From an uncultured Bacteroidota bacterium (lineage in GTDB: Bacteria; Bacteroidota; Bacteroidia; Flavobacteriales; Schleiferiaceae), in NCBI GenBank assembly GCA_913057235.1, contig CAJXNI010000025.1, forward strand, positions 1-41,966: 41,966 bases of DNA, given 5' to 3'. This document shows, piece after piece, positions 1-12,496 of the stretch (within the stretch, counting starts at the first letter, position 1; every line of letters begins with the position of its first letter). Made by a program: the position numbers and the translations under genes. The notes under the pieces were generated by a model, which saw only the letters and a program-made list of their open reading frames with translations, did no database searches and was not told the origin of the DNA.

Positions 1-1856
1 ATTATTTCTTTGCGCTCCATATCTGGTAGATCTACGTATTGGAGATAAGCATATGCGACAAGTGCAGCACCTCCATTATTTATCTCGCTTAACTCTAATT
101 CTTTGAAAACCTCAGCATCTTCATCCAATTCTTCAAATAAGGCGGGAAGTTGCTTATATGGGTCTTGGATTTCACCATCGACAGATTGTACCCAAACTGT
201 ATTGCCAGAAAGGTCATTGAGACTATTTAGTCCTATTTCCTTAATCGGCTTTGAGTATTTCTCTTGAAGATAAGCAGAGGACCTTAAAAAAGCAGGCAAG
301 TAGTCTTTTATCGAATTACCGCCTTTTGTCGCCGGATCATAATAATACCAATAGATAAGCTTCTGCAAATCTACCATGTTGCGCGAACCAATATGTGGGT
401 CTCCACTCTTACCTTGTGTAATGTTATCGATGAAGGAGATAAGTAGTTCTTTATCTGGCTCAGTACTTTCTGCCAACTGTTCTCTAACCATCCTCAAAAC
501 AGTATTCTCGTAGTTATGATACCTAAAAATAGTGCCATGCTCACCTAAGCTTGTCTTAAGTGCCCGAACAAAATCAAAGTTTGGAAACTGACCTTGGTCA
601 GCGAGGATGACTTGATTGTGATGTACTATGCTTCCATCTTCATGCATGATGTGATGGGAGAATTGAAAAGGAATATTCTGGTAGGGTCGAATTCCTTTGA
701 TAGGTGGCAGCGGGCCCAAACCAGCTTCAAAGTCAATGAAATGAAGTGGGTACTCATGCGAAGAAAAAGCTTCTCTTAATTCGTCTTTCAGGATGAAAGG
801 ATTTGAATCTTTTTCGACCTCCTTCTCTACTTGGATAAGCCTTCGATCACTTTGCTCCATCTTCCCTTTTAACTTGAGCTCTTGACCCAGAATCTCGGGA
901 GTCAATTCATCCAGAAATATGGGGGCATCAGGCTTTAACCTTCCATTATGCAAATTGAAAGCAAAACTCCTCTTGAAATCAGCATCAACTAATCCATGTT
1001 GATGCTTGTAACAATGTGCGAATCCGGATTTCCCGGATGGATCATCCAACAAGGATTTAGTTTTGAATTCACATTTTTTACATGCGGCATGCGAAGTTGG
1101 GTAATTGGGGTATTCCTGCTTCTGATAAACTGTTAAGATATCTTGTAAAGTATCGTGGAATGATTTCCCGCCTTTGGCATAGATTGTTTGTCCATCCAGT
1201 ATTCTACCAATAATTTCAGACACATCTACCTCAATCATCAACCGCTCACCAGTTTCGTCTAGATGATCGAAACCAATCTTCACATCCTGACGAATATTTG
1301 CATCTTTACCTGGGAGTCTAATCAGCTGAGCTAAACCATTGATAGAGGCCTTTTTGGTTTTGTCAACCAAAAAAAAGGATGATTTTATCAGACACTTCGG
1401 ATAGGCCCTCTTTGCGACTTCTGTCTGAAAAGCTAAATCAAACAAATAATCTTTCCAACCAGAGGCACAAGTTTTATTGGCATTTGACAAGAATTTGTCT
1501 CCAGGAGCATAACTCTTTGACTTCACTTCAATCAAGTGAAGCGTATTGCCTTTCTTCACCACAATATCCGTAAGTGCAAATAAATCACCCGCACTAAATG
1601 CAGCCTCGAATAAAACACAATCACCTTGCAAAGCTTTTGTTGTTTCCTCTATCGCCTCTAGCGGCCTTTTATACCCATCTTCTATGAACACTCCAGTGGG
1701 ATGAAACCTACGAGCATAGGCTTCTATCTGAAAGCCTCCAGAGGCTAATGATTGAAGAAAGGGATCATCATTACTTTGATTAAAATATCTTTGTTGGTTA
1801 AAATAGACCTTGTTTAAACAACTAAGACCGAGGCGAAACGTTGATTTTGATAGCAT
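1..1856 (-). CDS. DUF2779 protein: Fe-S PD-(D/E)XK nuclease fused to DEDD-type 3'-5' exonuclease (C-terminus off the left edge)
   Basis: The reading frame is open from ATG at 1856 to the window edge, giving 618 codons. The N-terminal part looks like a RecB/Cas4-type nuclease. It has E84, D97 and E110-V-K112, and a likely 4Fe-4S set made of C13 (in a G-L-S-C-L-N-K context) with C259, C262 and C282. A second module starts near residue 370 with F-I-D-F-E-A (D375, E377), followed by P-Y-Q-N-I-P-F-Q-F, which is typical of DUF2779 and resembles exonuclease motif I. A G-S-R-N-M-V-D-L stretch and a G-G-A-A-L-V-A-Y segment near the edge also fit that family. The function is inferred as DNA processing or defence and the substrate is unknown. 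It is divergent from the hydrolase at 1934 and lies in the accessory segment. Family call is solid; role is not known. Confidence 0.82.
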   Translation of the reverse strand, partial: MLSKSTFRLGLSCLNKVYFNQQRYFNQSNDDPFLQSLASGGFQIEAYARRFHPTGVFIEDGYKRPLEAIEETTKALQGDCVLFEAAFSAGDLFALTDIVVKKGNTLHLIEVKSKSYAPGDKFLSNANKTCASGWKDYLFDLAFQTEVAKRAYPKCLIKSSFFLVDKTKKASINGLAQLIRLPGKDANIRQDVKIGFDHLDETGERLMIEVDVSEIIGRILDGQTIYAKGGKSFHDTLQDILTVYQKQEYPNYPTSHAACKKCEFKTKSLLDDPSGKSGFAHCYKHQHGLVDADFKRSFAFNLHNGRLKPDAPIFLDELTPEILGQELKLKGKMEQSDRRLIQVEKEVEKDSNPFILKDELREAFSSHEYPLHFIDFEAGLGPLPPIKGIRPYQNIPFQFSHHIMHEDGSIVHHNQVILADQGQFPNFDFVRALKTSLGEHGTIFRYHNYENTVLRMVREQLAESTEPDKELLISFIDNITQGKSGDPHIGSRNMVDLQKLIYWYYYDPATKGGNSIKDYLPAFLRSSAYLQEKYSKPIKEIGLNSLNDLSGNTVWVQSVDGEIQDPYKQLPALFEELDEDAEVFKELELSEINNGGAALVAYAYLQYVDLPDMERKEI

Positions 1857-1933
1857 AATGTAATATTAAAGGATAATCTGTTACCGTCCAAATCGCTCCT
1901 GGTGTTTTAGAATTAATTAAAGTCTTCATTATC

Positions 1934-2434
1934 ATGCACATCATATTTAATCACGGAAAAGAAAGTGGTCCAAATGGACGAAAAATTGTTGCCATGAGTA
2001 AAGTGGCGGAGTCTTTAGGGCATAGTTATGCTTCCATAGATTATACAGAGTGTGTTAATGAGCACCAAAGGCTCAGTAAGCTTGAAAACTATTTAGAAGG
2101 ACAGAAGGATCAGGAGCTCGTATTAGTAGGTTCTAGCATGGGAGGTTATGTGGCCGCCGGCGCGGCTAATAGGTACACTCTTAAGGGTTTGTTTTTACTA
2201 TGTCCCGCCGTCTATAGAAAAGAATTTCAAGCCCAAGAGTATCAACCTAAAACTGAAGCGATTGAAATCATTCACGGCCGAAAGGACAAAATTGTAGAAT
2301 TAGAGGACTCCTTAAAATTCTCTGCTGAGCATCAGGCGATTCTTCATGTAGTTGAGGATGAGCATAGATTAGCGAATTCAGTCCCTCTAATTGCTCTCTG
2401 GTTCAAACTTTTTCTTGAGCGAATTAAGGTATGA
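1934..2434 (+). CDS. small alpha/beta hydrolase (YqiA/UPF0227-like esterase)
   Basis: A 166-residue single-domain alpha/beta hydrolase. It begins with the H-G-K-E-S-G strand-loop typical of the YqiA group. The nucleophile elbow is G-S-S-M-G-G-Y (Ser about residue 69). The acid region is H-G-R-K-D-K-I-V and the catalytic His is in E-D-E-H-R-L. All three triad elements are present, so it should be an active carboxylesterase or thioesterase-like enzyme, cytoplasmic because no signal peptide is seen. The substrate cannot be told. The stop codon overlaps the ATG of a 42-codon ORF (ATGA at 2431), which suggests translational coupling to whatever followed before that region decayed. Confidence 0.8.
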   Translation: MHIIFNHGKESGPNGRKIVAMSKVAESLGHSYASIDYTECVNEHQRLSKLENYLEGQKDQELVLVGSSMGGYVAAGAANRYTLKGLFLLCPAVYRKEFQAQEYQPKTEAIEIIHGRKDKIVELEDSLKFSAEHQAILHVVEDEHRLANSVPLIALWFKLFLERIKV

Positions 2435-2559
2435 GTATTAAGAAGGGTTTTGCTGAAATACCAGCAAAACGATTAAAGTTATCGCAACGTATTCTTACTT
2501 TGTTTTTTGGCGCAGAAACATATCCCATTAATTCCAAGAATCCACAATATTGCATTTAA
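2431..2559 (+). CDS. short ORF, possible 5' fragment of the next gene
   Basis: A 42-codon ORF that starts in an ATGA overlap with the upstream hydrolase and ends at TAA 2557-2559. Its product (starting M-S-I-K-K-G-F-A-E-I) matches nothing I recognise. The following ORF is in another frame, overlaps it by 10 bases and has no ATG start. A plausible reading is one gene split by a single indel near 2550-2560. A genuine tiny coupled peptide is the alternative. No programmed slippery heptamer in the right phase is visible. Confidence 0.3.
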   Translation: MSIKKGFAEIPAKRLKLSQRILTLFFGAETYPINSKNPQYCI

Positions 2560-3068
2560 AAACTTATGGTAATGGTGTAGCGATTTATTATTTGGGTCAA
2601 GCCGAGCGCTTCCTAAGTTTTGAAATGGCTAGATCTTTTACCTCTTTAGGTAGATTGGAGCTTGCTATGCAAGACATTTTTTTTGCTAAGCAGCACTCGA
2701 TTTCTTCTATCCATGAAGGGGGCTTGCTTACCAATGTCTTTCATGCTATGGATCGGCAGTTGAAAGTAGTTTTTCGAGGCGAAGGCCGAGTTTTCACTTA
2801 CCGCAAAGAGGATTTGGATTTAAACGCAAGTCTTTTTCCATTATTCCGCCCAGCTCCTCCTTTTCAATTAGACCCAGGCTTTTATCGTTTTGATACAATC
2901 ACTGGTCCAATTGGAAAAGCTGATCTGGCGGAACTGTCTGAAATGAAATCGATTTTCTGGAAGAATCCCTTATTGAAAGGTGATCTATGGGCTCTTAATA
3001 CGCCTAACTTTAAGCTTAGAGCAGATAATCAAATAAGAGCGAGACGTTTTCAGTTTGTCGGAGTCTAA
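2550..3068 (+). CDS. hypothetical protein, probably the body of a frameshifted gene
   Basis: A 172-residue ORF whose only upstream start is TTG at 2550; the frame is closed by TAA at 2529-2531. The first internal ATG is residue 25. The protein is mixed alpha/beta, without signal peptide or membrane segment, with a P-A-P-P-F-Q-L-D-P-G-F-Y-R-F stretch in the middle and a basic end (R-A-R-R-F-Q-F). I do not recognise the family. Composition is AT-rich like the rest of 1-3900. Together with the ORF at 2431 it could make one protein of about 215 residues if one frameshift is removed. Evidence for coding is only the ORF length and ordinary amino-acid composition. Confidence 0.5.
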   Translation: MHLKTYGNGVAIYYLGQAERFLSFEMARSFTSLGRLELAMQDIFFAKQHSISSIHEGGLLTNVFHAMDRQLKVVFRGEGRVFTYRKEDLDLNASLFPLFRPAPPFQLDPGFYRFDTITGPIGKADLAELSEMKSIFWKNPLLKGDLWALNTPNFKLRADNQIRARRFQFVGV

Positions 3069-3230
3069 GCCGATCTAAGGAATCTAAACTGATTAAAATT
3101 GTTGGGGGCTTATATCCTTATCAAGTCTTTATTATTTAAACTCGATGTTCTCTGGAGAAAATTCGATCAGGATCTAAACAAAAGGAAGTATATTTAAACC
3201 AGTCTGAATTTAGAGAAAGTTACAATTATT

Positions 3231-3653
3231 GTGAATATTGATTTAATATTCGAGAGATTTTCATCCGAGCAAAAGATTTTAGCTGCAAAAATGAGGTGGC
3301 CATACCTAGCTACAAAGGCGTCTCTCTTTCTGTCAATTGGAGCAAAGCAATATAGGGAAAAGGATTTCTTCTCAGAACCACATACCACTCAGGAAGATAC
3401 AATCAACTTGTTGACAGTCGGTTGTCACCAAGTAATGGAAGGTAAAGGTTTGACCATGGAAAATCCCTTCCATGATTTAAACGTTATCGGCTGCTCTGAA
3501 CTTTTTAAGATGTTTCATTTTGAAAAAATTTCACGACAAACAACTTACAATGTGGCCTTTGACGGAAATAAAGGTGCTTTGGATGAACTGACATTCAAAC
3601 ACATGGTGGATAATTCAGAAATTACTTATTATAACTTTTGCAGATATGTTTAA
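3231..3653 (+). CDS. hypothetical protein (GTG start), unrecognised
   Basis: A 140-residue ORF from GTG 3231. The same frame is open back to TAA 3195-3197. Before that stop it is open again to 3093, reading like protein (residues L-D-V-L-W-R-K-F-D-Q), so the TAA may be a nonsense mutation in a longer gene. The product has no signal peptide or membrane helix and no motif I know. It carries several aromatic and Cys residues near the end (Y-Y-N-F-C-R-Y-V). It is the last ORF before the integration junction at about 3900. It could be an intact small accessory gene or a decayed one. Confidence 0.45.
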   Translation: MNIDLIFERFSSEQKILAAKMRWPYLATKASLFLSIGAKQYREKDFFSEPHTTQEDTINLLTVGCHQVMEGKGLTMENPFHDLNVIGCSELFKMFHFEKISRQTTYNVAFDGNKGALDELTFKHMVDNSEITYYNFCRYV

Positions 3654-3840
3654 GTGTTTTTCCTAGGCATATTGATTGAACTAATGGAACCTCCCCATTG
3701 GATTTTAAAGCTCCATCAATATCTGTCAGCTTGATCAACAAATATGGAACGGGAGGATAGTTTAAAAACTAAATTATATCTTCGCTATGGTTAGCAATTT
3801 GGCGCATCTTACGGAAAAGCCCTCTGCCGGAGGTAAACTC
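3654..3840. other. intergenic, no gene seen
   Basis: AT-rich sequence between the last accessory ORF and the first AATCGTAACCCC repeat. No ORF of convincing length, tRNA or strong hairpin is visible. Confidence 0.5.
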
Positions 3841-3900
3841 GCTAAATCGTAACCCCTGCTTGGAAGCATCATTTTAAAGAAATGATTTTCAGATAATTAT

Positions 3901-3931
3901 GGAGAAGGGTTCAAGAACCCCTCTCTCCGCA
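3901..3931 (+). other. tRNA-Ser 3'-end-like fragment (probable attachment-site scar)
   Basis: The sequence GGGTTCAAGAACCCC followed by TCTCTCCGC looks like the T-arm and 3' acceptor strand of a bacterial tRNA-Ser, ending in discriminator G. No D-arm, anticodon arm or matching full 5' half is present upstream. The T-loop is off consensus by about one base, so this is not a functional tRNA. Only GGAGA at 3901-3905 can pair with the acceptor strand. The best reading is the duplicated 3' end of a tRNA-Ser left as attL/attR by site-specific integration. The alternative is a chance hairpin. Confidence 0.45.
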
Positions 3932-3957
3932 AGTTCGAGTACAGCGACTTAGTAAGA

Positions 3958-3989
3958 CCCTGAAAATCATAGTATTTTCAGGGTTTTTT
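3958..3989 (+). terminator. strong intrinsic terminator after the tRNA-like end
   Basis: Perfect 10-bp stem CCCTGAAAAT (3958-3967) with ATTTTCAGGG (3974-3983), a 6-base loop, then six T. It lies just downstream of the tRNA-Ser-like fragment. This fits a tRNA terminator that remained attached to the tRNA 3' end on the chromosomal side of the junction. Confidence 0.85.
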
Positions 3990-4039
3990 GTTTCCTCCGC
4001 TTGGCAAAATAATGAAGGTTTTGGCACTTTAAAAACGCT

Positions 4040-4075
4040 AAATCGTAACCCCACCCCATTTAGGGGTTACGATTT
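4040..4075. repeat. 13-bp perfect inverted repeat formed by two AATCGTAACCCC copies
   Basis: AAATCGTAACCCC (4040-4052) faces GGGGTTACGATTT (4063-4075) across a 10-base spacer. No T-tract follows, so it is better read as a paired protein-binding site than as a terminator. Confidence 0.7.
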
Positions 4076-4259
4076 TGAAATGGAAAAAATAAAAAGTGTA
4101 GTTCCTTAACTTTCAGGATTTTGCGCGGTCAGGTTTCAGGACATTGTCCTATAATTGTATTGCGAAGTGAGGGCGACAACTGTCAAAAAGGGTTGAAAAT
4201 CGTAACCCCTGCCGTAACCCCTAATCGTAACCCCGGCAGGCTATACGAATCCAATTCTT

Positions 4260-4311
4260 AAGACGCTAAAAGACAATGTTTTATGTCGTCAAGAAACACC
4301 TTTAGCGTCTT
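4260..4311. repeat. 11-bp inverted repeat over the integrase start
   Basis: AAGACGCTAAA (4260-4270) and TTTAGCGTCTT (4301-4311) are perfect complements separated by 30 bases. The right arm is inside the integrase remnant, and its ATG lies in the loop. In mRNA this would bury the start codon region. As DNA it could be an operator or recombinase site. Confidence 0.6.
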
Positions 4312-4381
4312 GTTCTTTCTGAACAAGTCAAAAACCAACAAAGACGGAGCTCCGATAATGCTCCGTGTCACTATTAAATAA
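4283..4381 (+). pseudogene. tyrosine-type integrase, N-terminal arm-binding fragment only
   Basis: ATG 4283 opens 32 codons ending at TAA 4379-4381. The product reads M-S-S-R-N-T-F-S-V-L-F-F-L-N-K-S and then N-K-D-G-A-P-I-M-L-R-V-T-I-K. This is the start of the arm-DNA-binding domain found in Bacteroidota phage/conjugative-element integrases (usual pattern: T-F-S-V-L-F-x-x-K...G-x-A-P-I-x-x-R-I-T). Real members are about 400 residues with a catalytic R-H-R-Y domain, none of which is present here. The gene is therefore truncated by deletion or decay. Its position next to the repeat cluster and the tRNA-like end supports a former element insertion. Confidence 0.72.
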
Positions 4382-4825
4382 GTGGCTTAGTTTTTAGGTC
4401 TCGGTAGAGGAAGAAATTGAAGCGGACTCATTTTAGTGCAAAGAATGATTGTTTCGTACCTGAAAGTACTCGAATTACCTAATGTCTTGGTAGTTGGGTA
4501 AGTGGAATGGATTTTTTTTTGCTAAAAATTAGTTTACGGCAAATTAGATGGTCATTCTCCTCTTTCTAGGTGCTTTCGTTCAAAGCAGAGGTCATAGTGT
4601 GCTTCACCCCCGTCCAAAATAAAAAAGAGGGGCATGAAGGTTTTCCCCACAACTAAATGGGTGCAAGCAGAGCGCTGTTTCTTTTTTTTTTGGCCTTTTT
4701 GCTTTTTATTCAAACCGCTTAAAATTTGCGCATTCTTTTTCAAAGTTTCTGAAAATCATCCTACCAAGTGAGTGGCAGGGCCTAAGGGCTCATTGCTTGC
4801 CCCCATCGCAGCGGGCGGGCTAATC
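4382..4825. other. intergenic remnant, no gene supported
   Basis: Contains long T tracts (about 4511-4520 and 4681-4692) and short hairpins but no convincing gene. A 63-codon minus-strand ORF at 4552-4743 is dominated by low-complexity Lys codons read from a poly-T tract and is rejected. This is probably decayed element sequence joining the backbone. Confidence 0.5.
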
Positions 4826-5224
4826 TTATTCTTGGGGCGCTAGCTGCTCCTCGGCCCAAGCCAGGCCTTGGTCTAAAGATTCAAAAACCTGAAAGGGAAC
4901 AGGATTGGGGCTCATCTTAAAGATGAGTTGTAGCACTTTGCGTAAAAAGGGCTGGGGAACCACGTAGGCAATACCTTGGCAGTAGGTCTTGATCAACTTG
5001 CGCTTCTTTTGCATCCAGGCCGCTTGTTTGCCTTGGTAAATGGGATTGAGCTCCAAGGCGCTGCGGGCATCAAAAACCAGAGCAATTTTTTCTTGATCCT
5101 GGTAGTTTTCCTCCAACTCACGTAGGTACACCTTAAAATTTTCCGGGGTGGCTTTTTCACCTGTAAATTCAATAACAACTAAGGGGAAGTTTTCACGGTG
5201 GAAAAGGGCATAGGGCTGGCTCAT
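4826..5224 (-). CDS. STAS/SEC14-like domain protein
   Basis: A 132-residue cytoplasmic protein with the fold pattern of SpoIIAA/STAS-like small proteins: an N-terminal beta pair (F-P-L-V-V-I-E-F-T-G), a long helix, then A-L-V-F-D-A-R-S-A-L as the central strand-loop. It lies 4 bases after egtD, so it is very probably the last gene of the egt operon. No catalytic residues are visible. A regulatory or lipid/ligand-binding role is only an inference from the fold, and what it does for ergothioneine metabolism is unknown. Confidence 0.6.
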   Translation of the reverse strand: MSQPYALFHRENFPLVVIEFTGEKATPENFKVYLRELEENYQDQEKIALVFDARSALELNPIYQGKQAAWMQKKRKLIKTYCQGIAYVVPQPFLRKVLQLIFKMSPNPVPFQVFESLDQGLAWAEEQLAPQE

Positions 5225-5228
5225 AGGC

Positions 5229-6176
5229 TTATTCTTTTAACCACAAAGAATCTACAAAATAATCTTTCGCATCGGTAAAATGTTTTTGCGCCCTAAAACC
5301 TGCTTTTTTAGCCAGCGCCTCTATTTCGCGCAAACTGTATTTTTTAGAAATCTCGGTGTGGATAGGTTCGGCAGCATCAAACTGAAAGGTTTTATCCAAA
5401 TAATCCACCTTTACCGCCTGCGCTTGTTTGCTAATCAGGTAACTGCGGCATTCTCCGTTTACCGGATTGTAATTGGGGTAGTGCTGAAATTGATCCAGAT
5501 CAAAATGGCCACCCAACTCTTCATTAATGCGTTTCAGCACATTGAGGTTAAAGCGGGCGGTGATGCCCTGGGCGTCATCATAGGCCTTGAGAATGGTACG
5601 CGGATTTTTTTTCAAATCAATACCGCAAAGCAGTTGATCGCCTGGTTTCATAATGGCCTCCAGCCGTCTGAAAAAACTACGCGCCCGCTGGGCGGTAAAG
5701 TTACCAATGTTCCCGCCTAAAAAGAGAATCACCTTGGGCCGCTGCCCTAAGTTGTTCATTTCCTGAATGGCGGTGAAATACTCGTAATGCAAGGTTTTTA
5801 CCGGAAGTTGGGGAAACTGATCCTTCAAATCAGCTTTCAGTTCCCGCAGCACATCCGCTGAAATATCAACCGGGTAGTAGGCAAAGTCTACTTTTTGTGC
5901 TAAAAAATGTTTGAGCAAGATTTTGGTTTTGTAACCATCGCCAGCCCCTAGTTCTACCAGATCAAAGCCCTGCGGGTGATTAATAGCCTTTAAAATTTGA
6001 TCCTTCTGTTTTTCAAAAATGGAAAATTCGCAGCGCGTGGGGTAGTACTCGGGCATCTGCATAATCTGCTGAAAAAGCTTGTCGCCCTCAGCATTGTAAA
6101 AGTAGCGTGAGGGTAGGTGTTTTTTCTTTTTGCTGAGTCCTTCGTTTACACTTTGGGCAAATTCTGTGAGCATCAT
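5229..6176 (-). CDS. egtD: L-histidine N-alpha-methyltransferase EgtD
   Basis: 315 residues, the usual length of the family. It converts histidine to hercynine using three S-adenosylmethionine. Motifs seen: N-terminal S-R-Y-F-Y-N-A-E-G-D-K-L-F and M-P-E-Y-Y-P-T-R-C-E typical of EgtD; SAM motif E-L-G-A-G-D-G-Y (residues 75-82); Y-Y-P-V-D-I-S; and G-G-N-I-G-N-F (154-160), which carries the histidine-binding Asn of the family. The ATG lies directly after the egtB stop (TAAATG), and the two genes act in consecutive steps. A downstream STAS-like gene follows 4 bases later. No key residue appears missing. Confidence 0.93.
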   Translation of the reverse strand: MMLTEFAQSVNEGLSKKKKHLPSRYFYNAEGDKLFQQIMQMPEYYPTRCEFSIFEKQKDQILKAINHPQGFDLVELGAGDGYKTKILLKHFLAQKVDFAYYPVDISADVLRELKADLKDQFPQLPVKTLHYEYFTAIQEMNNLGQRPKVILFLGGNIGNFTAQRARSFFRRLEAIMKPGDQLLCGIDLKKNPRTILKAYDDAQGITARFNLNVLKRINEELGGHFDLDQFQHYPNYNPVNGECRSYLISKQAQAVKVDYLDKTFQFDAAEPIHTEISKKYSLREIEALAKKAGFRAQKHFTDAKDYFVDSLWLKE

Positions 6177-7328
6177 TTAATTTTTTGCGAGCCGCAACCC
6201 GATACACTGCCAACGTTCATGGGCGTGGAAAAAGTTGCGGTATGTTTTACGTTTTTGGGCCGGGGGCGTAAAAATAGAAGCCCCGCGTAGCACCATTTGG
6301 TTGACCATAAATTTGGCGTTGTATTCTCCGGCTTCCGCCTGATAGCGTTGGTAACCCGGGTAGGGAAGGTAGGCACTCTCCGTCCACTCCCAGCGCTCCC
6401 CCCAATTCAGTTCATCAGCCGCATGTTCCCACTCCGCCTCGGTAGGTAGGCGCAAACCTTTCCACTGGGCAAAGGCAAAAGCTTCAAAATAACTGATGTG
6501 GGCTACCGGCCTTTCTAAATCTAAGGGTTTAAAACCTCCTAAGGTGTATTCCCACCAATTGTCTTCTTGTTTAAACCAAAAGAGGGGCGCTTCAATTTTT
6601 TGGTTCTGCACCCACTGCCAGCCTTCGTCATGCCAATACTTAAAATCATGGTAGGCCCCGGCTTCTACAAATTCCCGCCAATCGGCATTGTTGACCAAAG
6701 ACTGCTGCAGGCTGTAGTCTTGCAGGTAGGTGGTATGCAGGGGTTTTTCATTGTCAAAACCAAAGCCCTCGCCACTGTGGCCTAGTTTTGATAATCCACC
6801 CTCCAAGTTGAGCCATTGTGGTTCCCTTTTGGGAGGGGATGCGGTTGGCTTGAAATTTGGCAGCGCCTCCTTAAAAGGTTGCTGCCCTAAGATGTATTTC
6901 AAATCGCTTAAAAGCAGTTCCTGGTGCTGCATTTCATGCTGGAGCCCCAGTTCCATAAGCGCTTCCTGTTCAGCACTTAATCCATCGGCCAAGAGCCTAA
7001 GCACGGATTGATCTACGTGTTGGCGGTAAGTTAAAACATTTTCCCAATTAGGGCTGGTAATTTGCCCGCGGTCTTTACGCTCCAAACGCGCTCCCAATCC
7101 TTGGTAATACGAATTGAACAGGAAATTAAAACCGGGGTCAAATTCCTGATAGCCGGGCTGGAATTTCTGTAAAATTAAGCGTTCAAAAAACCAACTGGTA
7201 TGGGCAAGGTGCCACTTGGCCGGACTGGTAAATTCAGCTGGCTGTGCCATCAGCACTTCGGGCGAAAGCCCCTCTACCAGGCTAAGGGTGTAAGCGCGCG
7301 TTTTTTTGAAGTGCTTAACTAAATTCAT
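6177..7328 (-). CDS. egtB: ergothioneine biosynthesis sulfoxide synthase EgtB
   Basis: 383 residues. The N-terminal DinB-like half carries the iron ligands, H-L-A-H (H40/H43) and H-E-M-Q-H-Q-E (H131, H135, E137). The C-terminal half is a formylglycine-generating-enzyme-like fold ending G-L-R-L-A-K-N. EgtB is a non-haem iron enzyme that joins a thiol to hercynine with oxygen, giving a sulfoxide. No egtC amidohydrolase, egtA ligase or egtE lyase lies beside it, which hints that it uses cysteine rather than gamma-glutamylcysteine; this is inference. The TonB receptor gene ends 42 bases upstream with no strong terminator between them. egtD follows without a gap. Confidence 0.92.
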   Translation of the reverse strand: MNLVKHFKKTRAYTLSLVEGLSPEVLMAQPAEFTSPAKWHLAHTSWFFERLILQKFQPGYQEFDPGFNFLFNSYYQGLGARLERKDRGQITSPNWENVLTYRQHVDQSVLRLLADGLSAEQEALMELGLQHEMQHQELLLSDLKYILGQQPFKEALPNFKPTASPPKREPQWLNLEGGLSKLGHSGEGFGFDNEKPLHTTYLQDYSLQQSLVNNADWREFVEAGAYHDFKYWHDEGWQWVQNQKIEAPLFWFKQEDNWWEYTLGGFKPLDLERPVAHISYFEAFAFAQWKGLRLPTEAEWEHAADELNWGERWEWTESAYLPYPGYQRYQAEAGEYNAKFMVNQMVLRGASIFTPPAQKRKTYRNFFHAHERWQCIGLRLAKN

Positions 7329-7370
7329 GCATGGTACAAAGGCTGCAGGAGCGTTTTTGTTTAGCGCGTT

Positions 7371-9734
7371 TTAGAATTGCACAATTATTCCAATGGACGG
7401 AATGCGTGTGCCGTTTTCATTAATGAGTTCTTTAGTTGCGTAGCGATCGGGCTCACCGGGCTCACCGGGCTCAATGATAGGCTGCCCATTGGCATTTCTT
7501 TGGGGAATCAGGAAGGGTTCGCCCTGCACCGAGCCGCCCAAAAGATTTTGCACATCCAGGTACACGTTTAAAGACCATTTTTCAAAAAACCATTTTTTGT
7601 CTACCCGCACGTTCAGGCGGTTAAAGTTGTCAAAACGTCTGGAGTTCAGGCGCTCGTAATCAGGTAACCCGCGCGGATTACGGTCGTACACGCTTACAAT
7701 GGTAGAACGTTGCACGTCAAGCGGAGTAAAGGGCGCACCGCCTAAAAACTGGTATTGCACGCCCACTTCCCAGTCTTTGCCAAATTTTTTACCACCCGTA
7801 AAGGTGATGATGTTTTCATTGTCCCAGGCCGAGGGAACTAAATCGCCATTGGCATCTTCAAACTCACTTTTTACCAAGGTGTAAGCCAGGGTGCCAAACC
7901 AGCCTTCAATCAATTTCTGCTGGTACAAAAACTCCAGGCCGTAGGCTCTACCGGCCGATGAGGATTCTGCCGGCTCATTGCCAATCACGCCAAAATCACT
8001 GCCCAGGTTGGCCAGGGTAATGCCTTGCTCGGTCAAGAAAGGATAGTTTGCGTAGCGCTTGTAAAAACCTTCCATGCTAACCTTGGCATTAAACGGAAAG
8101 TAGTAGGCAAAACCAGCCACGTAGTGTTGCGCCTCTATGTATTTTAAATCTTGGTTTACCAACACATTATTGGTGTCTCTAAAACCCAGAGCGGTAAAAG
8201 GCGGCAGTTGGTAGTAAATGGAATAATTGGCGTTAAAACTAAGCTCAGGGCTAATGTTATAACTCAGCGCTAATTTGGGCGAAAATTGATTGAGCGGGTT
8301 TGCCATGTTGCTGTTAAAGGTATTCCCATCCATGCGGAAGCCGGCCGTAAGGCTAAGGCGCTGCTTGAAAAAGGCTTTGTTTACGCTGGCAAAAGCGGCA
8401 TAGCGGTACAGACGCAGGCGCGTGCTGTATTCTCTGCGGGGGGTAAAACGTTCATCGCGTTCATCGGTATTGTACTTGGCCTCTTCAAAACCAAAGCCGG
8501 TGGTAATGCGGTAGCCATTGTAGCGGGCAAAGTTTTCTACCCGCAGTTTGTTTTCAATTTCTTGCGATTCATAGTCCAGCAGCTGGCGCTTATCTTCATT
8601 GTTGTCTTCAAACTTAAAGGCGGTGTTGGTGAGCATGAAGCGGCTCAAGATTACATTGGTGTACGAGTTTTCACTGAAGCGGGTGTACTTGGCGCCAATG
8701 CTGTAGTTCCACTGCTCGTTTACCGGTAAAAAGTTCAGTTGAAACTGCTGCTCTTCGGTGTCATTGGCATCGGTATTCAACTCAAAATTATCAATGGCTC
8801 CTAAACCTAAAATGGTGAGTTGGTTTTTATCGTCAAACTTGTGCTTTACCTTAAACTGAAAATCGTTGTAGGTGGGTAAAAAAGGCAGCTCTAAAACCGA
8901 GAATAAAAATTGCAGGTAGCTCCTTCGGGCGGAAGCCAAAAAAGTGGTTTTCTCTCCTAAGGGCCCTTCCAGGGTAAGGCCTACCTCTGAGGCACCTACT
9001 TGAAAAATCCCCCCGATTTTATCGTCTCGGCCATCTTTTAGTTTAAGACTCAACACCGAGCTTAGTCCATTGGCGCGTTCCACCGGAAAGGCCGAGGTGT
9101 AGAGGTCAACCTCGCGAATAAAATTTACGTTTATCAAACCTACCGGGCCGCCACTGCTGCCCTGCGTGGCAAAGTGATTAATGGCGGGTATTTCAATGCC
9201 ATCCAGGTAAAAGCGGTTTTCATTGGGGGCGCCTCCGCGGATGATAATGTCATTGCGGAAGTTAGGAGTGGAAGCTACTCCTGGCAGGGTTTGAATCACC
9301 AGTGAAATATCCTGGTTACCACCCGGGTTCCGTTGAATTTCGTTAATCCCCAAGGTGTTTACGGAAACGGGACTTTCTTCCTTCCGCTCAAAGCGATCCT
9401 GGGCGCTAATTTCTACCGCTTCCAGCTGTTCACCGGCACTGAGAGCAAAATCCAGTACCGTGGGTTTGCTGCGGGTAATTTGTACTTCGTATTCGGTTTT
9501 AGAACCATAGCCCACAAAAGAAGCGGTAATGTTGTACAAGCCGAGCTCTACTTTCAACTCATAGTTCCCGTTATCGTCTGTGGTGGCGCCCAGGGTTTGC
9601 CCTTCAACCACCACGTTGGCAAAAGGCAGGGGCTCATTGTTAATTTCGTCATACACCCGGCCTTTTAAAATTCCCTTTTGAGCCCAAAGGGCTGGCGCCA
9701 GAAGCAGTAGCGCGGCACAGAGTCTGAAATTCAT
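7371..9734 (-). CDS. TonB-dependent outer-membrane receptor with carboxypeptidase-like N-terminal domain
   Basis: 787 residues. Signal peptide (about 18 residues ending L-W-A-Q), then a CarboxypepD_reg-like domain (G-x-V-x-D...P-L-P-F-A-N-V-V-V...T-D-D-N-G-N-Y, about 23-105). Next come a plug domain (about 130-235, with I-I-I-R-G-G-A-P-N-E-N-R-F-Y-L-D-G-I-E-I) and a 22-strand-type barrel ending in F. A 9-bp unit repeats nearly three times near the C-terminus (7448-7473), giving E-P-G-E-P-G-E-P in a predicted loop. Imports an unknown ligand with energy from TonB. It sits 42 bases before egtB in the same direction, so co-transcription with the egt genes is possible. A promoter-like TTTCTTTTG lies about 25 bases before its ATG. 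Confidence 0.9.
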   Translation of the reverse strand: MNFRLCAALLLLAPALWAQKGILKGRVYDEINNEPLPFANVVVEGQTLGATTDDNGNYELKVELGLYNITASFVGYGSKTEYEVQITRSKPTVLDFALSAGEQLEAVEISAQDRFERKEESPVSVNTLGINEIQRNPGGNQDISLVIQTLPGVASTPNFRNDIIIRGGAPNENRFYLDGIEIPAINHFATQGSSGGPVGLINVNFIREVDLYTSAFPVERANGLSSVLSLKLKDGRDDKIGGIFQVGASEVGLTLEGPLGEKTTFLASARRSYLQFLFSVLELPFLPTYNDFQFKVKHKFDDKNQLTILGLGAIDNFELNTDANDTEEQQFQLNFLPVNEQWNYSIGAKYTRFSENSYTNVILSRFMLTNTAFKFEDNNEDKRQLLDYESQEIENKLRVENFARYNGYRITTGFGFEEAKYNTDERDERFTPRREYSTRLRLYRYAAFASVNKAFFKQRLSLTAGFRMDGNTFNSNMANPLNQFSPKLALSYNISPELSFNANYSIYYQLPPFTALGFRDTNNVLVNQDLKYIEAQHYVAGFAYYFPFNAKVSMEGFYKRYANYPFLTEQGITLANLGSDFGVIGNEPAESSSAGRAYGLEFLYQQKLIEGWFGTLAYTLVKSEFEDANGDLVPSAWDNENIITFTGGKKFGKDWEVGVQYQFLGGAPFTPLDVQRSTIVSVYDRNPRGLPDYERLNSRRFDNFNRLNVRVDKKWFFEKWSLNVYLDVQNLLGGSVQGEPFLIPQRNANGQPIIEPGEPGEPDRYATKELINENGTRIPSIGIIVQF
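7448..7473. repeat. 9-bp in-frame tandem repeat inside the TonB receptor
   Basis: The unit CGGGCTCAC is repeated almost three times. On the coding strand it gives repeated Glu-Pro-Gly. Copy changes would keep the frame and only alter loop length. Confidence 0.7.
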
Positions 9735-9764
9735 ACAGTGTTTTTCTGATGAGTAAGCAAAAGA

Positions 9765-9787
9765 AACCCCGGGGTAGTCCCGGGGTT
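9765..9787 (-). terminator. terminator after the SRPBCC gene
   Basis: AACCCCGGG (9765-9773) pairs with CCCGGGGTT (9779-9787) around a 5-base loop. On the minus strand it is followed by a T-rich run, which suits the end of the gene at 9809-10825 and separates it from the TonB receptor. Confidence 0.75.
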
Positions 9788-9808
9788 CAAAAAAAGATGT
9801 AAAAAAAA

Positions 9809-10825
9809 CTACTCCCCGCTAAATATGGGATAAATCACCTGGGTTAACCAGCGATTGGTATCGGGTTCAGTTGCCGGGTCTGTTACATACAACTCAACAG
9901 CCGGAGCACCCAGTTTAATGTTGTTTTCTTTGGCATATTCCTCTATTAAGTAATGCGCTTGACCGGTACCGGAATAGTCTCCGTAGTAATCTACCCGCAG
10001 CACATTGCCACCCACAAATTCACCGGGCATAACGGTGTCATTACCAGCCTTCGTAGAAGCCACGGGCAGGGCCACAATCATATCGGTAGTGCTGGTTACC
10101 GTATCCCAATTGTAGTACATGGCCATAGGTGCCCCGGTCATGTTTTGCATGTCAGGACCTAAAAAGCGACCAATCATCTCGTAGCGCTCTTTGAAAAAGT
10201 CGCTTACGCTCATTTCGTCAAAGCTTACCTGATCCCGCACTCCAAAATACTGAATGGGCGTCATTTCATCGCGCTCTACTTTAAGGGCAGGCTTTTCATT
10301 GGCCTTGGCTTCAGCCACTGATTTTAGCGTGGCCAAACCACTTTCAAACTGAGGGCCCACCATGGCATCCATCAAATACCCGAAAGACCGCTGGAAAAAA
10401 CCCATCTCCCCGTTGAAGCTCCAGCTTACCTGGGTGCTGCCATCCTCATTTTTGGTTAAAATCCATTTACCATTAGACTCACCCTGGCCTTCAAACGCAA
10501 TGCGTGTGTGCATGGTATCCATACCTACGGTGCGTACAATTTGCTGATTGCCACCGCCCATGTTTTCACTGGTCCAGCTGTAAGAGGCGCCTTGGCCCTG
10601 GGTCTGCTCACCGTATTCAAAAGTCATGGTGCTGTCTGCCGCCAGCCAGGGGCTCCAGTTTTCCCAATTCTTGAAATCTGAAATTTGGGCGTACACCACC
10701 TCTTGAGGGGCGTTAATGGTGGCCGAGCGTTCTACCTCGTATTTTGACGGTAAAGTGGCCATCCAAATGCAGTACAGCCCAAACAAAACGAGCAGTACAA
10801 TTAAAATTACTTTGAGTGCTTTCAT
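9809..10825 (-). CDS. membrane-anchored SRPBCC (polyketide cyclase-like) + GyrI-like effector-binding protein
   Basis: 338 residues. One N-terminal transmembrane or signal-anchor segment (about 4-24), an SRPBCC/START-like lipid-pocket domain (about 30-175, with I-N-A-P-Q-E-V-V-Y and N-W-E-N-W-S-P-W), and a C-terminal AraC/GyrI-like effector-binding domain (about 185-338). This fusion is widespread in Bacteroidota and its ligand is unknown. Divergent from guaA across 141 bases. It ends at a clear terminator, so it is a single-gene unit. Confidence 0.78.
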   Translation of the reverse strand: MKALKVILIVLLVLFGLYCIWMATLPSKYEVERSATINAPQEVVYAQISDFKNWENWSPWLAADSTMTFEYGEQTQGQGASYSWTSENMGGGNQQIVRTVGMDTMHTRIAFEGQGESNGKWILTKNEDGSTQVSWSFNGEMGFFQRSFGYLMDAMVGPQFESGLATLKSVAEAKANEKPALKVERDEMTPIQYFGVRDQVSFDEMSVSDFFKERYEMIGRFLGPDMQNMTGAPMAMYYNWDTVTSTTDMIVALPVASTKAGNDTVMPGEFVGGNVLRVDYYGDYSGTGQAHYLIEEYAKENNIKLGAPAVELYVTDPATEPDTNRWLTQVIYPIFSGE

Positions 10826-10953
10826 TGTGTTGATTTTTTAGGAGATAGCTCAAAAGTAATTGAATTTCAACGTTCTTGAAAGAGGTTAAAAAGATGTTGA
10901 ATTCTGCTCGGCTTTCTGCATTAAATTCAGCGCTTTAAAAATCCAAAAGCCCT

Positions 10954-10961
10954 TACCTTTG
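10954..10961 (+). promoter_or_regulatory. guaA promoter -7 box TACCTTTG
   Basis: Exact match to the Bacteroidota box TAnnTTTG, ending only 5 bases before the guaA ATG. Transcription would begin at about the start codon, giving a leaderless or near-leaderless mRNA. A clear TTG -33 box is not seen at the expected spacing. Confidence 0.6.
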
Positions 10962-10966
10962 GCCCC

Positions 10967-12496
10967 ATGCATAACATGATTTTAATTTTAGACTGCGGCT
11001 CGCAATACACGCAGCTAATTGCCCGCAGGGTACGGGAACTCAATATTTACTGTGAGATTCATCCTTTTACGGATACCCACCGAATGGATGCTAACGTTAA
11101 AGGGGTTATTATCAGTGGTAGCCCGGCTTCGGTGCGCGATGCCAATGCCCCTCAACTAGACCTTAGCGACATCCGGGGTAAATACCCGCTTTTGGGCGTT
11201 TGCTACGGAGCGCAGTATTTGGCTAAAGCCGATGGCGGTAAAGTAGAGGCCTCCGAAACCCGGGAATTTGGCCGCGCCAACCTGAAGTCTATTGATCAAA
11301 AATCAGGTTTGTTTAAAAATATGGAGATTGGCTCTCAGGTATGGATGAGCCATGGCGATACCATTCTGGAACTACCCGAAAATTTTGAAATAGAAGCCAG
11401 CACCCGTGACGTGAAAGTGGCCGCTTACCACATTCAAGGGGAGCAAACCTATGGCATACAATTTCACCCCGAGGTGTACCATAGCAAGCAGGGCTTGGAA
11501 CTGCTTAAAAACTTTGCGGTAGACATTTGTGGCTGTCAACAAGACTGGACCCCCGCTTCTTTTGTGGAGGAAACGGTAGAGAAAATGCGCGAAAAACTGG
11601 GTGACGACCAAGTGGTGTTAGGACTTTCAGGCGGGGTAGACAGCACCGTGACAGCCGTGTTGCTGGATAAGGCCATTGGCGATAGGCTACACTGCATTTT
11701 TGTAAATAATGGGTTGCTGCGTAAAAATGAGTTTGAGCAAGTGCTGGATCAGTACAAAGAAATGGGGCTCAACATTAAAGGCGTAGATGCCAGCGAGCGC
11801 TTTTTATCAGCTTTACACGGCATTGCTGACCCTGAGCTGAAGCGTAAAACCATAGGCCGCGTTTTTATTGATGTATTTGACGATGAGGCTTCGGCTATTA
11901 CTAATGTAGATTGGCTGGCCCAAGGCACCATTTATCCGGATGTGATTGAAAGCGTGAGCGTTAAAGGCCCAAGTGCCACCATTAAAAGTCACCATAACGT
12001 GGGCGGCCTACCTGATTACATGGACCTAAAGGTGGTAGAGCCTATAAACACTCTTTTTAAAGATGAGGTGCGCAGAGTAGGTAAAGCCCTTAATATTAGC
12101 CCAGCGCTGTTAGGCCGCCATCCTTTCCCCGGACCCGGTTTGGCCATCCGCATTTTAAGCGAAATTACTGCTGAAAAAGTGCGTTTACTGCAGGAAGTAG
12201 ATCATATTTTTATACAAGGCTTACGCGATCACAATTTATACGATGCCGTTTGGCAAGCAGGCGCCATGCTGCTACCCGTGCAATCGGTGGGCGTTATGGG
12301 CGATGAACGCACCTATGAAAATGTAGTGGCCTTGCGGGCGGTAGAAAGCACCGATGGCATGACGGCAGATTGGGTACATTTGCCCTACGAGTTTCTGGCC
12401 GAAGTATCCAATCGAATTATCAATCGCGTTAAAGGCGTAAACCGTGTGGTGTATGACATCAGTTCCAAGCCACCAGCAACAATAGAATGGGAGTAA
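10967..12496 (+). CDS. guaA: GMP synthase (glutamine-hydrolysing)
   Basis: 509 residues, normal length. Converts XMP to GMP in purine synthesis using glutamine and ATP. The glutaminase domain has the nucleophile in G-V-C-Y-G-A (C79) with H167 and E169 in F-H-P-E-V. The ATP pyrophosphatase domain has S-G-G-V-D-S (221-226), and the dimerisation domain ends [19 protein letters not shown] 10967 is preferred over ATG 10976 because flavobacterial homologues carry a few residues before V/I-L-I-L-D. The last 10 bases overlap the start of the LysM gene, implying translational coupling. Confidence 0.97.

Follow-up and report, generated by a model that had tools for sequence, protein, structure and literature searches.

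A probable tail-to-head junction between two tRNA-targeting integrative elements of the same tyrosine-integrase family in an uncultured Flavobacteriales genome

Results

Organization of the locus

The window, that is, the whole stretch of DNA analysed, is the entire 41,966-nt contig CAJXNI010000025.1 (C25) of an uncultured member of the Schleiferiaceae, whose 2.83-Mb genome is assembled in 49 contigs. Between positions 3777 and 4390 a 157-bp block with a tRNA-Ser-like 3' end is followed by a terminator, by inverted and direct pairs of the 12-mer AATCGTAACCCC, and by an integrase stub. The features are listed below.

3..1856, minus strand: gene for a DUF2779 protein (PF11074, E 3.6e-22), cut by the contig start; presumed cargo
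1934..2434, plus strand: gene for a UPF0227/YqiA-like alpha/beta hydrolase (PF05728, E 1.3e-10); presumed cargo
2550..3653, plus strand: two ORFs (2550-3068 and 3231-3653) without a Pfam, PADLOC or NCBIfam match; presumed cargo
3777..3933, plus strand: conserved right end of the putative left element, with the tRNA-Ser-like end (96.8% over 157 bp to L067:14445-14601 of the relative G014)
3801..3833, plus strand: 33-bp right-end signature, found in the right ends of relatives
3845..3856, plus strand: AATCGTAACCCC copy inside the right end, from the repeat scan; candidate arm-type site
3921..3930, plus strand: attachment core CTCTCTCCGC, common to both element ends and the 3' end of tRNA-Ser(TGA)
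3954..3992, plus strand: intrinsic terminator of the integrase end (arms 3954-3967 and 3974-3987)
4041..4074: inverted AATCGTAACCCC pair (4041-4052 plus, 4063-4074 minus; fold z -5.2); candidate arm-type sites
4198..4234, plus strand: two more direct AATCGTAACCCC copies (4198-4209 and 4223-4234), with identical spacing in G014
4283..4381, plus strand: tyrosine integrase stub, the start of an arm-binding domain (32 codons and a stop)
4382..4391, no strand: last element-homologous bases and breakpoint to other DNA, where the local alignment ends
4826..12496, no strand: chromosomal flank with a SpoIIAA-like gene, EgtD, EgtB, a TonB receptor, a polyketide-cyclase-like gene and guaA, from family matches

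The terminator (~3954-3992) folded far better than its shuffles (z -6.1), and in relatives it occupies the same position, behind the rebuilt tRNA. The window has five exact copies of AATCGTAACCCC, at 3845, 4041, 4198 and 4223 and, on the minus strand, at 4063; the window scan tolerated one mismatch, and shuffles of the window gave a mean of 0.16 copies with a largest count of 2. An exact search of the whole genome returned those 5 copies and no others. The repeats, tRNA-Ser-like end, terminator and 32-codon stub had all been listed in the initial annotation, and scans, shuffles, folding and alignment confirmed them.

An intact counterpart element in G014

An intact element of 9.4 kb with a 410-aa tyrosine integrase was found in region L067 of G014, an uncultured Flavobacteriales MAG (CAJXKC010000001.1). 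The conserved block at 3777-3933 corresponds to the far end of this element, and window positions 3908-4377 match its integrase end (L067:5142-5611) at 96.4% over 470 bp. The two cores of the element are 9434 bp apart (L067 positions 5155 and 14589), and the ends that are separated by this distance in G014 meet at one core in the window as a tail-to-head junction. The joined order is that of a circular form or of two tandem elements. The locus had been read initially as the product of integration, with a second element to the left of the tRNA-like end; the two matches bear out both points, and the G014 element is the intact copy with repeats next to its integrase for which the initial annotation had recommended a search. 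G014 belongs to another genus, and the best EgtD among the other genomes of the family was 62% identical, so the 96-97% identity of the element points to horizontal transfer.

Residues 11-95 of the intact integrase matched Arm-DNA-bind_5 (PF17293). One further integrase hit, on a Bacteroidetes MAG contig of 7830 bp, was 89% identical to it. The G014 element carries RteC-like and HTH_17 genes (Pfam); an RteC-like gene is among the hallmarks of CTnDOT/NBU elements. No relaxase family was found among the 10 G014-element proteins, a subset of its ORFs, that were scanned with Pfam. On the element with the 89%-identical integrase a Fic-type protein (L111:6172-7278, G063:C150) matched PADLOC SoFic (E 3.8e-40). 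A DNA search of the family gave a match in 12 of 88 genomes, this one included; at most 6 candidates were scored per genome, by which arrays are undercounted, and many of the relatives' assemblies are fragmented.

The conserved right end

Window positions 3777-3933 could be aligned with eight other right ends from relatives, and AAATCGTAACCC and TGATTTTC were invariant across all nine. With up to 3 mismatches allowed, the 33-bp signature was present in 7 of 395 genomes sampled from the order, all of them in the family of the window and belonging to three genera; at the same tolerance there was no second right end in the window. The idea that the right end folds into a recombination site was rejected, as two right-end motifs folded no better than shuffles (z 0.34 and 0.09). 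A coding role of the right-end motif is unlikely, the short ORF across it being open in some copies only. Within 3783-3833, ahead of the conserved signature, the right end begins with a sequence that resembles a Bacteroidota promoter box. A putative transcript from this candidate box would cross the core and reach the terminator at 3954-3992.

The attachment core and its tRNA targets

No tRNA was detected in the window by ARAGORN, or in positions 1800-5300 by Rfam, where two weak matches fell far under their cut-offs (Atu_C9, 20.3 against 40 bits; BTnc005, 18.6 against 174.8 bits). A tRNA gene remnant was ruled out on these results. Positions 3921-3931 (CTCTCTCCGCA) are nevertheless identical to the 3' end and the following base of the genome's own tRNA-Ser(TGA) (C15:2865-2950), the kind of tRNA-Ser for which a search had been advised. 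The core CTCTCTCCGC and the A that follows it differ from the ends of tRNA-Ser(GGA) on C12 and of tRNA-Ser(GCT) on C7. The T-arm half of the tRNA-like piece gave a loose match only, and the 10-nt core taken alone occurs at chance level (2 matches with at most 1 mismatch, 1.3 expected). The tRNA-Ser-like end of the initial annotation thus stands as an identical 3' end, but not as what is left of a tRNA gene: from the sequence it is an attachment core shared between elements, belonging at once to one element's right end and to its neighbour's left end.

In relatives, intact tRNA genes are directly followed by integrases of this family (57-59% identical), namely tRNA-Ser(TGA) and tRNA-Ala(GGC) in G024 and tRNA-Ser(GCT) in G008. 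In each case the terminator comes first, the inverted CGTAACCCC pair next and the integrase last. A contig of G063 ends in a tRNA-Ser(GGA) that runs into this element, and its end shares a 55-bp overlap with the start of the contig that carries the 89%-identical integrase. An integrase beside an intact tRNA, as expected of an island placed there by a tyrosine integrase, was therefore seen in the relatives G024, G008 and G063 (contig overlap), while the window itself holds an integrase stub only, with no tRNA on the contig. Directly downstream of tRNA-Ser(TGA), an integrase matching that of G014 was present in 4 of 19 genomes viewed (G014, G028, G062 and G024), some of these stretches being cut by contig ends.

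The tyrosine integrase that stands behind tRNA-Ser(TGA) on C15 of the genome studied here is a different one (387 aa). A proposal to join the window to C15 behind this tRNA was unsupported, since C15 runs from the tRNA to the different integrase and on to other sequence. Beyond the 387-aa integrase there is a short GC-rich repeat run, and the contig ends 2.9 kb behind the tRNA (L078, G000:C15:1-2950).

The repeats follow the integrase

In G014 four copies of the 12-mer are spaced exactly as in the window, and a fifth lies 9 kb further on. Single copies were found in 11 of 60 related genomes, against 15 of 60 for a reversed control pattern; because the control was at least as common, single copies are noise and clusters alone are informative. 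A CGTAACCCC pair lies between the tRNA or core and the integrase in all 5 elements whose integrase is at least 57% identical, whatever the target tRNA. It was absent between tRNA and integrase from all 3 elements with a 49%-identical integrase (element B of G014, G028 and G062), as well as from the DNA behind this genome's own tRNA-Ser(TGA). The repeat thus goes with the integrase across differing target tRNAs, which is how a site recognised by the arm domain should behave. These data fit AATCGTAACCCC being an arm-type site to which the N-terminal arm domain of the integrase would bind, and a repeat that tracks its integrase in this way is a testable candidate.

Empty sites and stacked elements

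In G014 the order is tRNA-Ser(TGA), element B (~54.7 kb, with a 49%-identical integrase), the right end of B, the 9.4-kb element, and the tail CAAGAATCCCGCACAGCGTAAGCTGATGCGGGATTTTT. G064 has the corresponding empty site, with an identical tail CAAGAATCCCGCACAGCGTAAGCTGATGCGGGATTTTT directly behind tRNA-Ser(TGA). Left of the site the flanks of the two genomes align at 70.7% over 2660 bp; to the right, stretches of 1121 and 863 bp align at 73.0% and 76.0%, respectively. In G028 a B element of ~48 kb extends from the same tRNA, and its tail is similar to the empty site of G065 (79.3% over 179 bp). The B elements of G028 and G014 align at 85.2% over 11.5 kb, 80.0% over 5.0 kb and 79.5% over 3.9 kb, with shorter or weaker pieces besides. 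A copy of the tRNA 3' end at the far boundary, with a matching empty site, was accordingly found twice (G014 against G064, G028 against G065). One core is shared by neighbours both in the window (3921-3930) and in G014 (element B and the 9.4-kb element). As read from these alignments, G014 displays element-on-element stacking at one tRNA. The empty sites of G064 and G065 supply the comparison with insert-free relatives that had been called for, as far as the tRNA is concerned; no relative having the exact locus of the window minus its insert was found. Contig C1 of G064 has two tRNA-Ser(TGA) genes (L161, L162) with the same downstream tail and differing spacing to a second core-like copy.

The stub, the breakpoint and the right flank

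The stub is 83% identical to residues 1-35 of the intact 410-aa integrase. Relative to G014 there is a short in-frame gap and a stop after 32 codons, and homology is lost after ~4390; relatives keep intact copies of the gene. The DNA past the breakpoint scored like shuffles (22 against a mean of 20.7 and a maximum of 29), and after 4390 no homology above shuffles was found to the integrase gene or to the remainder of the G014 element. Searches of the genome for the remainder of the stub's own integrase found none: the top match among its other integrases was 33% identical, and none matched at E 1e-70. As far as the assembly shows, the host is without a cognate enzyme for the junction.

The order EgtD-EgtB-polyketide cyclase-guaA is retained in G003 and G067, and no tRNA was detected by ARAGORN around EgtD in the regions fetched from relatives, these two included. 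For these reasons the join at ~4390 looks like a deletion or rearrangement point and not like an attachment site. In relatives EgtD is preceded by genes for a sulfotransferase-like protein, a symporter and a PIG-L-like protein (named by reading the sequences). The match of the PIG-L-like gene is at C1:105593 in the present genome, and with gene order differing in this way the insertion is not datable by gene order. Window positions 4379-4825 and the left part had no tblastx match at E 0.01 in the loci fetched from other genomes. EgtD and an EgtB-like gene also occur inside the 54.7-kb island B of G014 (L158, G014:C1, 11677-13790), whereas the window has the two genes beside the junction.

The left part

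The hydrolase at 1934-2434 scored far under the cut-off of the NCBIfam YqiA model, and the DUF2779 protein had no PADLOC or NCBIfam match. A defence role of the left-part proteins was set aside, as PADLOC gave no match. The GC content of positions 1-3776 is 38.8%, against 46.8% for 4826-41966, and is below that of every same-sized stretch there (43.2-50.0%). Across 30 further 3-kb loci, each at a tRNA of this genome, GC ranged from 39.2 to 49.6%, which makes the contrast modest; foreign origin is supported, not proven. The left part is presumed to be cargo of the left element, probably running to the contig start.

Right ends apart from a matching integrase

In genus g6 exact copies of the core occur behind tRNA-Ser(TGA) or in arrays 0.6 to 2.9 kb apart, with 5 copies in G104 (including the tRNA's own), 3 in G103 and 3 on contig C116 of G100. 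Some of these arrays end in the conserved right end. No integrase end of the window's family was found at the loci of G104, G103 and G100; on contig C118 of G100 the integrase behind the tRNA is 35% identical. A right end of the window's type lies 9.7 kb behind tRNA-Ser(TGA) in G008, and no integrase of the window's kind was found in that stretch. G091 (L113, G091:C20, 5600-8285) has an intact tRNA-Ser(TGA), a left end cut just past the repeats, AraC-like and SDR-like genes (named by reading the proteins) and a right end, that is, both ends with no integrase between them. A tRNA-like piece, on the opposite strand, lies at the cut in G091. A second right-end type (up to 3 mismatches) was present in 9 of 88 genomes of the family, against 2 with the reversed control.

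In G104 (L115, G104:C15:25117-25362) a 128-bp unit, the terminal part of the right end from signature to core, is repeated in direct tandem in at least 1.9 copies that continue to the contig end. This tandem is either a small satellite of the right end or an assembly limit.

Discussion

The best explanation of the region 3777-4390 is that two integrative elements, both of the same tRNA-targeting tyrosine-integrase family, meet there tail to head; we give this reading a probability of roughly 0.78. The left half would be the intact right end of element 1. The right half would be the left end of element 2, with the core, the terminator, the arm repeats and the first 32 integrase codons; element 2 would otherwise have been lost, leaving its stub against ordinary chromosome. 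In the proposed mechanism the integrase binds its arm sites, AATCGTAACCCC, through the N-terminal arm domain, and the element core is recombined with the 3' end of a tRNA-Ser. The tRNA would be rebuilt with the terminator borne by the element, and the displaced tRNA end would come to lie at the element's other boundary. The new boundaries could then serve as targets in their turn, so that elements stack. The initial annotation had suggested a tandem insertion in which both elements decayed; the tail-to-head junction agrees with this, but decay is seen for the right-hand element only. Several points tell against the two-element reading. The other end of the left element and the tRNA are off the contig, and two separate elements are not proven; moreover, the gene order of the flank differs from that of relatives, which leaves the right-hand breakpoint unexplained. 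Furthermore, an intact copy of such a junction was not seen in another genome, the core by itself occurs at chance level, and the GC contrast is modest.

An unlikely explanation, though the one that fares best among the alternatives, is a single permuted element, in which an excised circle was inserted non-site-specifically through its integrase gene, or a duplicate was mostly deleted, so that the junction is an old circular att site. The order at the junction is exactly that of the circular form, the right-hand breakpoint is away from any attachment core, and the far left is off the contig, all of which suits this explanation. It would place the remainder of the integrase at the far left, however, and no such remainder was found in the genome, though the contig is cut; stacking by recombination at the core, on the other hand, is directly seen in G014.

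Somewhat less probable again is that the left part is an integrase-less unit of cargo and right end, like those of g6, that ended up next to a decayed integrase element, either put there or left behind. Right ends without an adjacent matching integrase end in G104, G103, G100 and G008, and the two ends with no integrase between them in G091, are precedents for it. Against this, the contig does not reach the left boundary of the window's unit, and the g6 units are perhaps plain decayed elements. That small units of cargo and right end in g6 stack like cassettes at tRNA-Ser(TGA), moved in trans by shared tRNA-Ser integrases, and that the left part of the window is one of them, is a doubtful proposition. 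The right-end-only units may be decayed elements, an outcome already known from passages of PMC5704250 and PMC3146451. Mobility of such units in trans, if true, would be new, and a cassette-like array would then be entered at the tRNA 3' end.

That a tRNA-like string, a terminator and repeats came together by chance, with no relation to integration, is very improbable: the 10-nt core is at chance level and single 12-mers are no commoner than the reversed control, yet the repeat cluster, the 96-97% match of ~600 bp to two separate element ends of G014, and the empty and filled tRNA sites of relatives led to its rejection.

As to class, an integron cassette array was rejected, as integron-integrase models scored far under their cut-offs (42.6 against 265 bits and 26.6 against 435 bits) and the two right-end motifs fold like shuffles. 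The putative elements are not filed as IMEs, as the ten G014-element proteins scanned included no product of a mobilisation gene. With regard to CIMEs, the right element has lost its integrase and the far boundary of the left element is off the contig. The window looks like a clear, if fairly unremarkable, case of island accumulation at tRNA genes. Its value is that an environmental Flavobacteriales lineage gains a family of islands at tRNA-Ser and tRNA-Ala whose boundaries are precise and for which empty sites, filled sites and stacks are all on record, by which island limits and cargo become callable in relatives and in metagenomes. Should the integrase-less units found in one genus prove mobile in trans, they would be of greater import.

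Bacteroidota integrases with Arm-DNA-bind_5, SAM_5 and Phage_integrase domains have the same domain order as the G014 integrase. The latter is ~37-41% identical to site-specific integrases of Phocaeicola, Parabacteroides, Bacteroides and Prevotella (best 8 of 30 plasmid records); all plasmid matches were below 60% identity, the closest among the matches listed being 41%, and viral collections gave no match. Among the papers listed by literature searches, none named these elements. The kind of event, tandem accretion of integrative elements, is already known elsewhere. The window arrangement works in the same way as the tandem accretion and CIMEs at tRNA genes described in passages of PMC5704250, from which it differs in integrase, core and host lineage and in a left boundary that is off the contig. 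In Dehalococcoides, according to passages of PMC3146451, several ssrA islands lie in tandem; direct repeats of a single RNA gene's 3' end mark their boundaries, and some of them are without an integration module. There a serine recombinase acts at the tmRNA gene, as set out in the same passages, whereas the family described here has a tyrosine integrase at tRNA-Ser or tRNA-Ala.
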